This document shows, one piece after another, positions 30,092-35,989 of a stretch of 64,000 bases of DNA. Positions within the stretch are counted from its first letter, which is position 1. Each line of letters opens with the position of its first letter. Where the stretch lies: assembly GCF_014200575.1 (NCBI RefSeq), contig NZ_JACHBZ010000001.1, forward strand, positions 496,001 through 560,000, written 5' to 3'. The stretch is from Mucilaginibacter saanensis. GTDB lineage: Bacteria > Bacteroidota > Bacteroidia > Sphingobacteriales > Sphingobacteriaceae. The notes beneath the pieces are model-generated. The model was not told where the DNA came from and searched no databases. It worked only from the letters and a program-made list of their open reading frames with translations. The position numbers were made by a program, and so were the translations under genes.

Positions 30092-30532
30092 ATGAACATG
30101 GTTCATAAAATTGAGAACTGGGGCGATACCCATCACCCTAAAATCCTTGACCTGATGCGCATTGCGCTTGGCGTGTTTTTATTGTTAAAAGGTATAGCCT
30201 TTATGGAAAATACAGCTTACCTGAAAAGCCTTATTGATGGTCAAAATGTAGTTGATTTATCGCCCATGCTGTTAATGATGGTGGTTTATTATGTAACCTT
30301 TGCACACATGGTTGGGGGGGTACTGATAGCCATAGGTATATTGACGAGGGCAGCATCTATTGTTCAGATCCCGATAGTTTTGGGTGCCGTATTTTTAACC
30401 AGTATTTTTAATGAACCCATTAATGCTACCGCCTGGCCATCTATAGTGGCCCTGGTGCTGCTGGTTGTATTTGCTGTTTTAGGTTCGGGCCCTATATCGT
30501 TAGATAAATACCTCGCGGAATGCAGCGAATAA
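30092..30532 (+). CDS. DoxX family membrane protein
   Basis: The 146-residue protein has four TM helices (about 18-40, 60-85, 88-105, 115-135) in the DoxX pattern: LDLMRIALGVFLLLKGIAF at the start and FAHMVGGVLIAIGILTRAA in the middle. DoxX proteins are linked to thiosulfate oxidation, carotenoid or oxidative-stress functions and are often just called membrane subunits; the role here is unknown. Unusually for this window a strong GGAGG lies 6 bases before the ATG, which supports the chosen start and suggests high translation. Confidence 0.88.
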   Translation: MNMVHKIENWGDTHHPKILDLMRIALGVFLLLKGIAFMENTAYLKSLIDGQNVVDLSPMLLMMVVYYVTFAHMVGGVLIAIGILTRAASIVQIPIVLGAVFLTSIFNEPINATAWPSIVALVLLVVFAVLGSGPISLDKYLAECSE

Positions 30533-30552: not shown

Positions 30553-30828
30553 CTAATATCCAGTTACCAGTTCATCGGCATAACACCATAACCATCGCTC
30601 GCCGGGCTCGGCCGATATAACAACCGGGTGGCCTGTAGCATGGAAATGTTTTGTCATGTGTGTATTTGGCGAACTGTCACAGCATAGCGTAACGCCACAG
30701 GTTTGACAGGTACGTAGGTGCATCCACGAGGAATGCGTTTTTACGCACTCCTCGCAAATGTAGTCCTGGGGGTGTTTAATATCGGTAACTGCTGCCAGGT
30801 GCTGGCATATTTCATCTTCCTGCATCAT
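30553..30828 (-). CDS. UBP-type zinc finger protein
   Basis: The 91-residue protein is a stand-alone zf-UBP domain. Zinc-ligand candidates in order are C8, H10, C25, C28, C41, C44, C49, H57 and H63 or H67. The end RWLWCYADE (78-86) corresponds to the WCY segment that in eukaryotic USP5 or HDAC6 fingers shapes the pocket for the free ubiquitin tail. Bacteria without ubiquitin still encode such fingers; the ligand is unknown. The ATG overlaps the stop of the upstream fusion protein by one base (TAATG), so the two are translationally coupled and probably function together. Confidence 0.85.
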   Translation of the reverse strand: MMQEDEICQHLAAVTDIKHPQDYICEECVKTHSSWMHLRTCQTCGVTLCCDSSPNTHMTKHFHATGHPVVISAEPGERWLWCYADELVTGY

Positions 30829-32489
30829 TAAACTTCTGCTAAGTATTTGTGTACAAAACTAATGGCCATGGATCCTTCGCCTACTGCTGATGCTACACGA
30901 TTCATGGCTCCGGCACGTACGTCGCCGGCTGCAAATATGCCTGAGCAACTGGTTTCTAATAAAAACGGATCGCGTTTCAACTTCCATATTTTACCAAAAC
31001 CCTCGTAACTGCGTAACTCTCTGCCGGTTTCAATAAAATCCTTGCTGTTTTTTATAATGTCAAGTTTTATCCAGTCGGTGTATGGTTTGGCGCCAATAAA
31101 AATATATAAGGCATTGGCTACTTTGGTAGTTGTTGCCTGTGTTTTACAATTACGCAGCGTAAGTTTTTCGAGGCAGTTGGTGCCCTCTGCTTCAATTATC
31201 TCCGTATCAGGTATAACCTCAATGTTCGGCGTGTCCGCAATCTGATTAATCAGGTAGGCCGACATAGTAGCCACCAAATCTTCCCGGCGAATGATGATAT
31301 ACACATTCTTAGCAAATTTAGACAGGTGCATAGCGGCCTGCCCTGCAGAGTTGCCTCCGCCTGTTACATATACCTCTTTGCCGGTACAGGCAGTGGCTTC
31401 TGTAGTAGCTGCGCCATAATAAATGCCGGCCCCGGTGTAATTTTCAACACCTTTTACCTCCAGTTTGCGATAGTCAACCCCGGTGGTAATTACCACAGTA
31501 CGGCTAATGATTTCCGGGCCATCGTCCAGTATAATTGTTTTATAGCCGTCTTTCTGTTTAATATCACTTACTGATTGCGGCGATAAAAACTCGGCTCCTA
31601 AACGCATAGCCTGGCTTATGGCGCGCCTGGTAAGGTCGGCACCACTCAGGCCCGCAGGGAAACCAAGATAGTTTTCAATGCGCGAACTGGTACCTGCTTG
31701 GCCGCCTGGTGCCTTACGTTCAATCAATAAAGTTTTTAAACCTTCTGATGCGCCGTAAACAGCGGCAGCCAGCCCTGCTGGCCCTGCGCCTATGATCACC
31801 ACGTCATAAACATCAGTGAGCGTCTGTGGGTTTTTATCCAGTTTTTCGGCGATGGCCTTTATAGTTGGTTTCGCTATATAGCTGCCATCTTCAAATACTA
31901 CCAGCGGCAGGCAGTCCGTAGTTAAGTTATTAAGTGATAAAATACCGCCTGCATCTATGTTTTTTTCTACATCTAACCAGCGGTAAGGTATCAGGTTGCC
32001 CGCCAAAAAGTCTTTTATTTGGTGCGATTGCGGCGAAAACTGATAGCCCAATAGTTTAATACCCACAAATTCGGGTACATAGCTATTTTGCCAGTCGTCA
32101 AGCAGGTCATTTATTACCGGGAAAAGCTTTTCTTCCGGCGGATCCCATGGTTTCATCAGGTAATAGTCAAGCTGCACATCATTAATGGCTTTTATGGCAG
32201 CTTCCGTATCGGAGTAAGCGGTAAGCAATACACGCTTGGCATCCGGATATATTTTTTTGGCTTTTTCAAGAAACTTAACACCTTCCATCTCGGGCATGCG
32301 CTGGTCGCAAAGAAACAGGGCAACCACGTCAGAGCCATTTCTAAGCTCGGTTAGGCTTTCGAGTGCTTCATGTGCCGACGTTGTACTCAGTATTTTGTAC
32401 TCTTTACCATACTGCGATCTTAAATCGCGGCTTATGGACCGCAGTACCTGCGGGTCATCATCAATTGAAAATATTATGGGGCGGCTCAT
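30828..32489 (-). CDS. Response regulator / glutaredoxin-like / thioredoxin-reductase-like fusion flavoprotein
   Basis: Three parts are visible in 553 residues. Residues 1-125 are a receiver domain with acidic triplet D10-D12, phosphoacceptor Asp62 (FLCDQRMPEMEG), Thr90 and Lys113. Residues about 140-220 look like a glutaredoxin fold (YRWLDVEKN, LPLVVFEDGSYIAKP) with the CxxC position replaced by SPQSH. Residues 227-553 are a two-dinucleotide-binding reductase: FAD motif GAGPAG (234-239), NADPH motif GGGNSAG (377-383), FAD motif GIFAAGDVR (518-525). Where thioredoxin reductase has CATC this protein has AATTEAT, so no redox disulfide exists there. It probably passes electrons to something else, or senses redox state, under phosphorylation control. 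Coupled to the zinc finger. Confidence 0.88.
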   Translation of the reverse strand: MSRPIIFSIDDDPQVLRSISRDLRSQYGKEYKILSTTSAHEALESLTELRNGSDVVALFLCDQRMPEMEGVKFLEKAKKIYPDAKRVLLTAYSDTEAAIKAINDVQLDYYLMKPWDPPEEKLFPVINDLLDDWQNSYVPEFVGIKLLGYQFSPQSHQIKDFLAGNLIPYRWLDVEKNIDAGGILSLNNLTTDCLPLVVFEDGSYIAKPTIKAIAEKLDKNPQTLTDVYDVVIIGAGPAGLAAAVYGASEGLKTLLIERKAPGGQAGTSSRIENYLGFPAGLSGADLTRRAISQAMRLGAEFLSPQSVSDIKQKDGYKTIILDDGPEIISRTVVITTGVDYRKLEVKGVENYTGAGIYYGAATTEATACTGKEVYVTGGGNSAGQAAMHLSKFAKNVYIIIRREDLVATMSAYLINQIADTPNIEVIPDTEIIEAEGTNCLEKLTLRNCKTQATTTKVANALYIFIGAKPYTDWIKLDIIKNSKDFIETGRELRSYEGFGKIWKLKRDPFLLETSCSGIFAAGDVRAGAMNRVASAVGEGSMAISFVHKYLAEV

Positions 32490-32542
32490 AGGGTCTTTTC
32501 TAAAGGTAAATTATTAATATTCTATCAGGTATCGGGTAGTTC

Positions 32543-32617
32543 GTATCAAGATTCTTTTAGAGCTAATAGTACTACTTTGAGAAACTGTCTTGATACTTGA
32601 TACTCTCTACTTGATAC
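32543..32617. repeat. CTTGATAC direct and inverted repeats
   Basis: Three copies of CTTGATAC (32589, 32596 and 32610) and the inverted GTATCAAGA (32543-32551), which pairs with TCTTGATAC (32588-32596), fill the 135-base gap between the cNMP-kinase gene and the fusion gene. The stem could weaken read-through inside the operon, or the copies could be protein binding sites. Short satellite-like repeats of this look may occur between other genes of the genome. Confidence 0.5.
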
Positions 32618-32624
32618 TCATAAG

Positions 32625-34025
32625 CTATCCGTCAATCAGGAAGCAAACACTAAACACGGTATGCCCGGGTTGTGATTTTACTTTTATGGAGCCACGGTGT
32701 TGTTTTACAATACGTTGCACAACCTCAAGCCCCATGCCGGTTCCTTTGCCCATTTCTTTTGTAGTAAAGAACGGATCAAACACCAGGCTTTGTATATCCG
32801 GCGGAATGCCCGGCCCATCATCAACTATAAAAACTTCAACAAACTCACGGTCGCGGCGGGTTTTAATGGTTAGCGTACCTTTACCGCTGGGTTCCATAGC
32901 ATCAATGGCGTTATCAATCAGGTTAGTCCATACCTGGTTAAGCTCGCCTATCAGGGCCTTAACTTCGGGCAGGGTTTCATCAAAATCTTCAACAACGTTA
33001 ATGTTCCCTTTTCTTATCTTATAGCCAAGCATGGTAAGCGTGTTGCGGATGCCTATGTGTATATCGGCATATTGCTTGTCCTGTGCCCTGTCCATGTGGG
33101 TAAAAGTTTTAACAGAACTTACCAGTTCAGCTATGCGCCTTGCCGATTCCTGGATGTCCCGTACCATTTTTTCGGTAATCAGCATATCGCTTATCCAGTT
33201 TAATACATGGGTTAAACTTTCAGCTGGGGTATTTTGCTTAAATACTTCCAGCGCGTCAATGGAGCAATTAAAATCAACGTAGCTTTCGGCAATCTCGTAG
33301 CTGTTTTCTACTTCATTTTCATCAAACCATTCAATTATTTCATCTTCGCGTTTGGTGCGTTGTTTAAGGCTAAGCCGGGTTGTGTTTTTATCATCAAGCA
33401 GTGCAAACAAGTTTTGAGTAATGGCGCTAATCTGTTCAACACTCATCTTAATGCTAAAGATGGTCTTGATGCTTTCTGGTTCCTGCTCCAGGTGTTTTTT
33501 TAATGTTAACGAATCACGTACAATAGCCGATGCCGGATTGTTTAACTCATGCGCAAGCCCTGCCGATAATTTACCCAGCGCCATCATTTTTTCATTTTGC
33601 TGCTGCAGGGCAGTAAAATCACGAACACGGGTGGTCATGATATTAACCAGTGCCTGCGTAAGTTCATAATGATTTTTTATCATGTCAGGTATCAGCTCAG
33701 TCTTAAAGCTGCGCATTTGCAGCTTACCCACAGCCTGAGCATATCCTTTTGAAATTTTACCTCTTGAAAACGGCAGGTACCCAGTAATATTTCCAGGGCC
33801 TACAACTGTAAAATCGCGCCGGGAGCTGCCCTGCATCATGAAAAAGCGCATGCTGCCATCAACCATAATATGGGGGCCGCTCATGGGCTCGCCGGGTTGC
33901 ATCAGATATTCCCCATCCTCAAGAATGTTGTCCACGCTGTTGTCTAACAACCATTGCAGTTGATCTTCAGGTACTCCATTAAAAGCTTCGAGCGATTGCA
34001 GCCAGGATGCGGTTATAGTTTGCAT
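32625..34025 (-). CDS. Cyclic-nucleotide-binding-domain histidine kinase
   Basis: The 466-residue cytosolic kinase has an N-terminal cNMP-binding/Crp-like beta-roll (about 10-115; EDGEYLMQPGEPMSG, VVGPGNITGYLPFSRG), a short helix, a DHp domain with His159 (LGKLSAGLAHELNNPASA) and a HATPase domain (NQVWTNLIDNAIDAMEPSG, DDGPGIPPD, KGTGMGLEVVQRIVKQH). No TM segment is seen. It lies directly upstream of the receiver-domain fusion and is its probable phosphodonor. The roll lacks the full RxAS-type phosphate cassette of cAMP receptors, so the ligand may be something other than a cyclic nucleotide. Confidence 0.88.
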   Translation of the reverse strand: MQTITASWLQSLEAFNGVPEDQLQWLLDNSVDNILEDGEYLMQPGEPMSGPHIMVDGSMRFFMMQGSSRRDFTVVGPGNITGYLPFSRGKISKGYAQAVGKLQMRSFKTELIPDMIKNHYELTQALVNIMTTRVRDFTALQQQNEKMMALGKLSAGLAHELNNPASAIVRDSLTLKKHLEQEPESIKTIFSIKMSVEQISAITQNLFALLDDKNTTRLSLKQRTKREDEIIEWFDENEVENSYEIAESYVDFNCSIDALEVFKQNTPAESLTHVLNWISDMLITEKMVRDIQESARRIAELVSSVKTFTHMDRAQDKQYADIHIGIRNTLTMLGYKIRKGNINVVEDFDETLPEVKALIGELNQVWTNLIDNAIDAMEPSGKGTLTIKTRRDREFVEVFIVDDGPGIPPDIQSLVFDPFFTTKEMGKGTGMGLEVVQRIVKQHRGSIKVKSQPGHTVFSVCFLIDG

Positions 34026-34175: not shown

Positions 34176-34922
34176 TTATATCCACTTGCTCAGAAACTGG
34201 CCAAAGGGTTCTTTGTACTGATCGCCAACGGTAATATTCACGGTGCCAATTTGCAGCGCATTGCGGGTAATGGAGTTTATTTTATCAAGTGACACAATGT
34301 AGGAGCGGTGTACCCGCATAAAACGTTTGGAGGGTAATTTTTCTTCGAGTGCCTTTAAGCTGGTGAGGGACAGCAACGGCTTTTCTGTATTTTGAAGATA
34401 TATTTTTACGTAATCTTTAAGGCCCTCCATGTATAAGATATCTTTAAGTGCAATACGTACCAGTTGATACTCAATTTTTAAAAATAAATAATCTTCTTCT
34501 GGATGCTGGGGAACGGCATCCGGGGCGGCAGCTGTATTTGAACGCTGCAGTAATTCAACATAGGTTAAGGCTTTGTTTGATGCATGCAAAAATTCCTCGT
34601 AATTAAAAGGCTTAAGCAAATAGTCAAGCGCATCAACCTTGTAACCTTCAAGCGCAAACTGATTGTAAGCGGTTGTAAAAATGATGCGGGGTTTGTTGGC
34701 ACTCCGGCTATCCAATACGCGGGCCAGTTCAATACCGTTTAAATTGGGCATTTGTATATCCAGAAAAACAAGGTCGATCTTTTGGGTTTGCAGGCCAACC
34801 AGTGCTTCAACAGCGCTGGAGTACCTGCCTGCCAGTTTTAAAAATGGTGTTTGCTCAATAAAGGTACAAACCAAGCCAAGCGCCAGTGGCTCATCATCAA
34901 CTGCTATACAATTTAATATCAT
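34176..34922 (-). CDS. LytTR-family response regulator
   Basis: The 248-residue regulator has a receiver domain (D9-D10, phosphoacceptor Asp55 in LVFLDIQMPNLNG) and a C-terminal LytTR DNA-binding domain (about 140-245; LVRIALKDILYMEGLKDYV, FMRVHRSYIVSLDKI). It overlaps the kinase gene by 4 bases. Such pairs in Bacteroidota regulate neighbouring outer-membrane genes; the divergent TonB receptor at 36273 is a candidate target, which is inference. Confidence 0.92.
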   Translation of the reverse strand: MILNCIAVDDEPLALGLVCTFIEQTPFLKLAGRYSSAVEALVGLQTQKIDLVFLDIQMPNLNGIELARVLDSRSANKPRIIFTTAYNQFALEGYKVDALDYLLKPFNYEEFLHASNKALTYVELLQRSNTAAAPDAVPQHPEEDYLFLKIEYQLVRIALKDILYMEGLKDYVKIYLQNTEKPLLSLTSLKALEEKLPSKRFMRVHRSYIVSLDKINSITRNALQIGTVNITVGDQYKEPFGQFLSKWI

Positions 34923-35989
34923 GCCAGGTTGAGGGTTAGGTTAACGTTATAAGTATTGGCTGTGGTGTTTTCGTCTATCAACAAGGTATACTTACCCGGA
35001 TAAAGCAGGTCAAGACGGCGTATGGTATTGGTTAAACCGATACCCTTATTTTCTTCAATATTGGTGTTATGATCTTTAAATATACCATTCTGCACCTCCA
35101 ATACCAGTTCATTGGCATGTTGCCTGATATTAATGATGATACTGCTGGGCAGGGTAGCGCTAATGCCATGTTTAAAAGCGTTTTCAACAAAAGGTAAAAT
35201 TATCATTGGTGCTACCGGCATGTCATTTAAATCGGGCGGTAGGTTAAATGCTATGGTAACCTTATCCGTAAGGCGCAACTGCATTAAGCTAATGTAATCT
35301 TTTATAAAGGCAATTTCCTGGCTGAGTAATGCTGTACTGTGCTGGGTATCATATAGCACATACCGCATCATGCGTGATAGCTGGTGCAGCGCCTTGCGTG
35401 ATGTATCGGCATTAATCAGTGTAAGTGCATAAATATTATTAAGCGTATTGAAAAAGAAATGCGGATTGATCTGTGCTTTCAGGAACGACAGTTCGGAGCT
35501 TATTTTATCCTGCTCCAGAGCCTCGCGCAGCCTAATGTCACTTTGCCATTTTTGTATGGCGGTTATGCTGGTGCTGATACCCAAAACCAAAGAAATAATA
35601 AATATCATGGCAAGATCAAAATCGTGGCGGTTGTTACGCGGTTTTGGGGGGCCATGCTTGTGAAAGGCAGTGTCCATCAACTGGTGCATATTGAGCCAGC
35701 TATCTGTAAAGCTGTTTATTAAATATATAACAGTTATTAAAGCCAGTACAAACAAAAAGTACATGCCGGTACGGTGTTTTAATAAAAGCTGCGGCACCAG
35801 TAGGCCCGAGTTAACATAAAATGCTATCACCAGCATACTTAAAACAATAGCCTGCTTTATCCAGAACTGGTAGGGGAGTTCGATATTCCATGATAGCGGC
35901 TGGTACAGAAATAATCCGAGGCCCAGTACTACCCAGGTAAGTACATGTATAAGTATGGTTATAGAATTACTTTTTGATTTAAGGCTCAT
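34919..35989 (-). CDS. LytS/YehU-type sensor histidine kinase
   Basis: The 356-residue protein has four TM helices in its first 150 residues (about 12-28, 44-62, 74-95, 128-145), then the His-kinase core with KAQINPHFFFNTLNNIYAL, the HisKA-7-type signature in which the His is phosphorylated, and an ATPase region with APMIILPFVENAFKHGI. It pairs with the LytTR regulator. The loop between TM3 and TM4 contains HKHGPPKPRNNRHD, a His/Pro-rich stretch that might bind a metal or ligand. Confidence 0.9.
   Translation of the reverse strand: MSLKSKSNSITILIHVLTWVVLGLGLFLYQPLSWNIELPYQFWIKQAIVLSMLVIAFYVNSGLLVPQLLLKHRTGMYFLFVLALITVIYLINSFTDSWLNMHQLMDTAFHKHGPPKPRNNRHDFDLAMIFIISLVLGISTSITAIQKWQSDIRLREALEQDKISSELSFLKAQINPHFFFNTLNNIYALTLINADTSRKALHQLSRMMRYVLYDTQHSTALLSQEIAFIKDYISLMQLRLTDKVTIAFNLPPDLNDMPVAPMIILPFVENAFKHGISATLPSSIIINIRQHANELVLEVQNGIFKDHNTNIEENKGIGLTNTIRRLDLLYPGKYTLLIDENTTANTYNVNLTLNLA

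Follow-up and report, generated by a model that had tools for sequence, protein, structure and literature searches.

In the low-Mr thioredoxin reductase (TrxB, TIGR01292) of Escherichia coli, the Asp of the C-A-x-C-D site is a catalytic acid. A protein related to this enzyme is encoded in a 64,000-nucleotide stretch of Mucilaginibacter saanensis DNA (contig NZ_JACHBZ010000001.1, positions 496,001 to 560,000; hereafter the window), as the middle gene of three: an apparently soluble sensor histidine kinase, a fusion of receiver, glutaredoxin-like and thioredoxin-reductase-like flavoprotein domains, and a bacterial zf-UBP finger. The original prediction, made from the sequence alone, had the three genes running in one direction with the stop of the fusion and the start of the finger overlapping by one base (TAATG), and the coordinates, all on the minus strand, bear this out (Table 1); the gap between kinase and fusion is 135 bp. 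The fusion resembles TrxB in its FAD/NAD(P)H motifs, in overall sequence (230 bits) and in an acid next to the disulfide site, but it lacks CxxC (82 of 82 homologues), scores under the 343.45-bit cut-off and has N-terminal receiver and redoxin-like domains added. Alkyl hydroperoxide reductase F (AhpF) likewise has a thioredoxin-fold part ahead of a thioredoxin-reductase body, and took ranks 2, 5 and 8 in a Foldseek search with a weak model of the fusion, whereas the fusion has neither CxxC, has one redoxin-like domain and adds a receiver. The finger is 51% identical to 2IDA over an 80-residue aligned part and shares its Cys/His pattern and CCD; the molecule name of 2IDA, 'Hypothetical protein', gives no function. 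Eukaryotic ZnF-UBP domains (USP5, HDAC6, USP49) share the fold family and zinc-ligand pattern, but their C-G-R corresponds to C-C-D with one inserted residue in the bacterial finger. Prokaryotic binuclear treble-clef fingers were reportedly treated by Burroughs et al. in 2011, who may discuss the bacterial UBP finger. The MhqR regulon of Bacillus subtilis, which provides quinone resistance, is similar in that an MhqO-type ring-cleaving dioxygenase and an esterase lie by the finger in one family, and DoxX by the finger of the window, and different in that kinase, flavin fusion, finger and Kef are added here.

Both families are already known and large (at least 8000 relatives of the fusion and 6389 of the finger), and the finger has a solved structure. 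The genes are commonly named 'FAD-dependent oxidoreductase' or 'thioredoxin reductase' and 'UBP-type zinc finger'; the label 'thioredoxin reductase' is misleading because the dithiol is found in none of the 82 homologues examined. The architecture in which a receiver is fused to a thioredoxin reductase is already in print (PMC5847659), in passages that mention neither the lost cysteines nor the finger nor a Kef/quinone context. Literature searches found no publication on the kinase-fusion-finger triad, and passages of PMC4506424 do not mention it.

We tentatively favor, at somewhat under an even chance and from sequence evidence, a reading in which the three genes form a stress-defence module that directs a phosphorelay-gated NAD(P)H-flavin enzyme against thiol-reactive electrophiles, probably quinones, and the finger serves as a sensor or adaptor that does not depend on ubiquitin. 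The CAP-like domain of the soluble kinase would sense a cytoplasmic signal, the kinase would phosphorylate the receiver of the fusion, and this phosphorylation would gate an NAD(P)H-FAD oxidoreductase, apparently derived from a thioredoxin reductase, in which the disulfide and the redoxin cysteines are gone and the acid beside the flavin is kept. Because both cysteine sites are lost and the acidic residue is retained, the flavin would hand its electrons straight to a small oxidant, a quinone or another thiol-reactive electrophile being the likeliest. The UBP finger would sense, or act as adaptor for, the same stress independently of ubiquitin, coupled here to the reductase and elsewhere to a Kef-type K+/H+ antiporter. 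We infer the phosphotransfer from kinase to receiver, the quinone substrate and the sensing role of the finger, and the function assigned to the module comes from gene context. The earlier proposal of phosphorylation-controlled flavin chemistry or redox sensing stands as far as residues go, as the phosphorelay residues and the flavin and pyridine-nucleotide motifs are kept and both CxxC sites are gone; its functional half we also infer. That proposal did not touch on the quinone- and electrophile-related neighbors, the Kef-finger fusions, the retained acid, or the fact that both families are large and already described. If the reading is true, a large and vaguely named gene group would acquire one testable role, that of a phosphorelay-gated flavin enzyme, and a ubiquitin-family zinc finger would gain a function in cells that presumably have no ubiquitin.

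An evenly drawn sample of 296 Bacteroidota genomes was searched with zf-UBP and with the fusion, a fusion being counted as full-length if the match started at or before query residue 4 with E <= 1e-90. Matches to zf-UBP over the cut-off were found in 31 genomes (32 places) and full-length fusions in 41. A finger lies within 6 kb of the fusion in 20 of these 41 genomes (window included), which by simple arithmetic is far above random placement of two genes in several-Mb genomes; in 5 the finger is farther away or on another contig, and 16 have none over the cut-off. We then took stretches of about 12 kb around the finger places of the sample, the window's excluded (31 loci, one of them cut short where its contig ends). 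Kinase, fusion and finger occur together in 19 of the 31, and two further loci pair the finger with a fusion relative lacking a receiver match, a bare reductase of 422 aa in L165 and a 553-aa protein with an unidentified N-terminal part in L163. The 19 triad loci are not independent cases, because they belong to only five families (f8, f10, f23, f29 and f41), among which f23 prevails. All three genes were also present in 40, and fusion plus finger in 4 more, of the best 80 named loci from a sequence-driven search biased toward close relatives. No finger-reductase fusion protein is among the 34 places listed in the even sample, where the four long frames encode Kef joined to the finger. A neighborhood not conserved in other genomes, the outcome that would have spoken against the original prediction, did not materialize: conservation extends over 20 of the 41 Bacteroidota fusion genomes and two phyla.

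Among plasmid records, 87 matched the finger and 130 the fusion (60 of each listed), and 22 regions were read. Tsukamurella and Streptomyces fungicidicus have the order fusion-kinase-finger with 4-base overlaps, followed in Tsukamurella by S-(hydroxymethyl)mycothiol dehydrogenase. The finger adjoins all three forms of the reductase body (receiver-fused, CAP-fused and bare); besides the receiver form, its neighbor is a CAP-type reductase in Rhodococcus, Streptomyces, Rhizobium and Agrobacterium, and a bare reductase in Paraburkholderia and, divergently transcribed, in Burkholderia pyrrocinia. On the Rhodococcus and Streptomyces plasmids (L087 and L088), the finger and CAP-type reductase are downstream of dnaK-grpE-dnaJ-cbpM-clpB-trxA, and genes for a Clp ATPase, Hsp20 and HdeD are near the Paraburkholderia pair. 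Because the finger accompanies receiver-, CAP- and bare reductases, its partner is probably the reductase body and not the receiver; this is our best evidence, and it upholds the idea of the finger as a partner of the fusion. Other stretches hold a reductase with no kinase or finger homologue (Cupriavidus, D. aquaticus, Gloeocapsa and Novosphingobium) or a finger with no reductase (Oscillatoria, Variovorax, another Deinococcus and Arthrobacter), and the Hymenobacter finger has only a partial reductase-like match next to it. It could be argued that the genes are separate stress genes that share one island and have no joint function, since many kinase-fusion pairs have no finger and many fingers no fusion. 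We consider this very improbable, given gene overlaps of one to four bases, recurrence in several gene orders and two phyla, and the presence of the finger beside reductases with three different kinds of wiring.

The receiver has the residues expected of a phosphorelay: all 20 aligned fusions share the acidic pair Asp10 and Asp11, the phospho-Asp Asp62, Thr90 and Lys113. The middle domain is detectable by profile only, through the mycobacterial glutaredoxin-like protein Rv3198.1 (2lqo, E 5.3e-9), and has SPQS (residues 152-155) at the CxxC position of that redoxin, with no CxxC or CxxS. In an alignment of 82 homologues of the reductase, 70 of them with a receiver, the motifs GxGPxGL, GGQAG, GxxNSAGQ and GDVR are kept in at least 97%, and none of the 82 has the active-site CxxC at the disulfide position; three carry a CxxC elsewhere. 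Tyr358 is conserved in 82 and Glu364 in 81, and in two HMMER alignments with thioredoxin reductases the Asp of C-A-x-C-D falls on Glu364. The features first described at this gene, namely AATTEAT (residues 360-366) instead of the thioredoxin reductase disulfide, a glutaredoxin-like part without CxxC and, in outline, two retained nucleotide sites, are thus all present. The loss of both cysteine sites with retention of the acid suggests that the flavin is active and contacts its acceptor directly. Alternatively, the reductase-like body might be not an enzyme but a sensor, in which the bound FAD and NAD(P)H would signal redox state to receiver, kinase and finger, as the loss of both cysteine sites throughout and the regulatory receiver or CAP domains fused in front would allow. 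Conservation of Glu364 (81/82) and Tyr358 (82/82) is unexpected for a dead enzyme, however, and reductase forms with neither receiver nor CAP domain exist (404-430 aa), so we regard a pure sensor as unlikely. As a separate observation, the fusion gene of one metagenome contig (L013:5304-6966) consists of two overlapping frames, perhaps through an assembly error.

The finger scores 45.8 bits against zf-UBP (cut-off 22.7) and is the only such match in its own genome. We aligned 127 finger rows (124 of them different), one of 128 being excluded with a motif that deviated from the cutting pattern. Invariant in all 127 are Trp35, Leu38, Arg39, Cys41, Cys44, Cys49, Cys50, Ser53, His57, His61 and His67, and Cys25 and Cys28 of the zinc-ligand pattern are kept in 126. 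In eukaryotic UBP fingers, the Arg of the C-G-R site binds the carboxylate of the ubiquitin tail. Positions 50-53 hold no Arg in any of the 127 bacterial rows, and because an invariant C-C with Asp occupies the site instead, diglycine binding by the finger is not expected. Nor do the sequences support the fusion's own C-terminus, the other ligand originally suggested: none of the 82 fusion homologues ends in Gly-Gly, and the last residue varies (V in 32, S in 18, N in 12). A diglycine or C-terminal-tail ligand is unlikely on sequence for these reasons; another kind of contact between the finger and the C-terminus of the fusion is possible.

The chaperone contexts described above raise the question of whether the finger reads the C-termini of damaged proteins, much as its eukaryotic counterparts bind the ubiquitin tail, with the reductase as a heat- or oxidation-response enzyme. 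The operons of Rhodococcus and Streptomyces and the Clp ATPase, Hsp20 and HdeD genes of Paraburkholderia fit such a role in proteostasis, but the missing Arg (127/127) does not, and no chaperone recurs among the nameable Bacteroidota neighbor clusters, which are a minority and to which no chaperone search was applied; we find this explanation quite improbable. From the cross-brace ligand order of the fold, we take Cys50 not to be a zinc ligand. In three actinobacterial fingers (L091, L099 and L100), Cys50 is kept although Cys8, His10 and Cys82, the ligands of the third site, are missing, which is consistent with that assumption. One could imagine that the finger is a bacterial thiol or electrophile receptor that works without ubiquitin, with the non-ligand Cys50 at the position of the ubiquitin-tail pocket, and that it switches the dithiol-less reductase and Kef antiporters; we think this specific version distinctly unlikely, though if it were correct, recognition of the ubiquitin tail would have arisen later, from a finger that first sensed stress. 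The structure model of the finger (pLDDT 63.8) is too weak for claims about a pocket. In a weakly resolved tree, triad, DUF5996-linked and globin-linked fingers cluster but do not separate cleanly. DUF5996, itself a family whose name assigns no function, is a second conserved partner, adjoining the finger in 12 of the 80 named loci (L002-L081) and in L084 and L091, from Bacteroidota, a cyanobacterium and an actinobacterium. In L039-L041, L047 and L049, finger paralogues lie directly downstream of a bacterial-like globin gene, and several of the globin-linked loci have a membrane histidine kinase and, by eye, an Anbu-like proteasome-type protein nearby.

The neighboring genes suggest a context of electrophile stress. 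The 31 even-sample finger loci contain a Kef-type antiporter in 21 cases (17 as separate genes and 4 fused to the finger, in L136, L139, L141 and L147), an MhqO-type dioxygenase in 13, an esterase in 12 and a DsbA-like gene in 11; one more MhqO-type dioxygenase, in L166, lies 4 kb away from a weak match to the finger. MhqO and MhqD respond to quinones, and Kef responds to electrophiles. The usual order in family f23 is dioxygenase, esterase, Kef, DsbA-like, finger, kinase and fusion, mostly with short gaps (L137, L144, L157). The best solved relative of the L151 dioxygenase is 3oaj, 'ring-cleaving dioxygenase mhqO' (1.4e-70), and the same protein matches 2,6-dichloro-p-hydroquinone 1,2-dioxygenase (1.4e-33). 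The neighboring esterase is a phospholipase/carboxylesterase, presumably MhqD-like by comparison with the Bacillus regulon, and the best NCBIfam name for the two antiporters checked is glutathione-regulated KefC, under its cut-off. In L138, L143 and L141, the finger remains with or inside Kef, with no fusion in the stretch. In two of the 80 named loci (L043 and L044), a DUF5996-linked finger has an esterase nearby and a dioxygenase some 6 kb off. EgtB and EgtD, for ergothioneine synthesis, occur in the finger locus in 11 of the 80, ten with the triad, and the pair of L020 is above both NCBIfam cut-offs.

Other neighbors raise the possibility that the missing dithiol is supplied in trans, with a thioredoxin, a DsbA-like protein or Cys50 of the finger docking at the flavin, so that the module still reduces disulfides. 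The trxA gene is directly upstream of finger and reductase in Rhodococcus and Streptomyces, thioredoxin-domain and DsbA-family genes precede the reductase in Gloeocapsa, the 11 DsbA-like genes above stand before the finger, and Cys50 never varies. However, two of the DsbA-like proteins (L144:5412-5933 and L158:6248-6769, both before the finger) have CPYS, with one cysteine at the site, the 82 homologues have no CxxC at the redoxin or reductase site, and the window contains no DsbA-like match (thioredoxin genes were not searched for). On balance, we judge a dithiol in trans to be improbable. The CPYS of these neighbors parallels the loss of the dithiol in the fusion.

The kinase looks soluble, with no membrane span, because its maximum 19-residue hydropathy is 0.91; the reductase and finger look soluble as well. 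Of its Pfam matches, HATPase_c (2.7e-25, residues 361-461) is significant, and HisKA and cNMP_binding are under their cut-offs. The HisKA-like region has His159 within GLAHELNNP, and simple patterns recover the H box (H[EQ][LMI]NNP) in 67 of 67 kinase relatives, the N box in 60, G1 in 63 and the F box in 61. The description of the kinase as 'cNMP-type' holds for the CAP-like fold, but as a label of fold only: the cAMP-style R-(S/A/T)-(A/T) motif occurs in 1 of the 67 kinases and in 0 of 21 Crp-type controls and does not discriminate. With a profile of six reductase-fused CAP domains, and CAP domains taken from 8 of the 67 kinases, 6 of these 8 rank above all 21 Crp-type controls, the window kinase falling just behind one control. 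In the reverse comparison, 4 of the 6 reductase CAP domains rank above all controls (one by 0.1 bit) and 2 do not, and a single-sequence search of the own genome for the shared CAP domain matched two other proteins and not the kinase. These comparisons are only suggestive of a CAP domain common to the kinase and the CAP-type reductases.

Several results weigh against the stress-defence module that we favor. There is no finger within 6 kb of 21 of the 41 full-length fusions, and fusion and kinase occur with no finger in the stretch read in Nostoc sp. C052, Gloeothece, Caballeronia and Deinococcus aetherius, as they do, with genes in between, in Nostoc edaphicum; the finger is accordingly accessory. 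Fusions lie among glycogen genes in cyanobacteria, and the actinobacterial DnaK-GrpE-DnaJ-ClpB-TrxA operons also point elsewhere. All 13 dioxygenase loci are within the 17 finger loci of the single family f23. The Kef, dioxygenase, esterase, DsbA-like, EgtB and EgtD queries match nothing in the window, and the mhqO-like and esterase-like pair of the same genome is on another contig (C19). Since the window holds only DoxX among the queried neighbors, function is transferred to it by homology. Finally, the structure model of the fusion is weak (pLDDT 73.9, pTM 0.46; TM-scores 0.20-0.42 among the 50 Foldseek matches listed) and insufficient for claims about domain packing.

Table 1. Coordinates in the window of the three genes, their domains and sites, and the DoxX-family neighbor.
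Feature	Position	Strand	Evidence
Sensor histidine kinase, apparently soluble; CAP-like + HisKA-like + HATPase_c, 466 aa	32625..34025	-	Pfam
CAP-like (cNMP_binding fold) input domain of kinase, residues 35-118	33672..33923	-	PF00027 3.4e-4, 21.0 bits (cut-off 27.5)
Fusion: receiver + glutaredoxin-like + thioredoxin-reductase-like flavoprotein, 553 aa	30828..32489	-	Pfam
Receiver domain, residues 6-118	32136..32474	-	PF00072 (Response_reg) 2.3e-15
Glutaredoxin-like fold without CxxC, about residues 144-216	31842..32060	-	Profile A2 (16 sequences) to 2lqo
Thioredoxin-reductase-like FAD/NAD(P)H body, residues 228-550	30840..31808	-	PF07992 (Pyr_redox_2) 2.8e-31; TIGR01292 230 bits
AATTEAT, residues 360-366, in place of CxxC-acid site; Glu364 at 31398-31400	31392..31412	-	Alignment
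Bacterial zf-UBP finger, 91 aa	30553..30828	-	PF02148 7.1e-12; closest solved chain 2ida 8.9e-27
Cys50-Asp51 of finger, at eukaryotic C-G-R site	30676..30681	-	Cys50 127/127, Asp51 125/127
DoxX-family gene, convergent with finger	30092-30532	+	PF07681

DoxX genes are part of quinone-resistance operons in Bacillus, and 20 of the 80 named loci have a DoxX gene after the finger, on the opposite strand. On the other side of the triad, upstream of the kinase and on its strand (34176-35989, minus), the window encodes a LytTR-like response regulator, whose nearest NCBIfam family is BtsR/LytR, under the cut-off, and, by eye, a LytS-like kinase. Homologues of this LytTR/LytS pair precede the kinase in several Mucilaginibacter loci.

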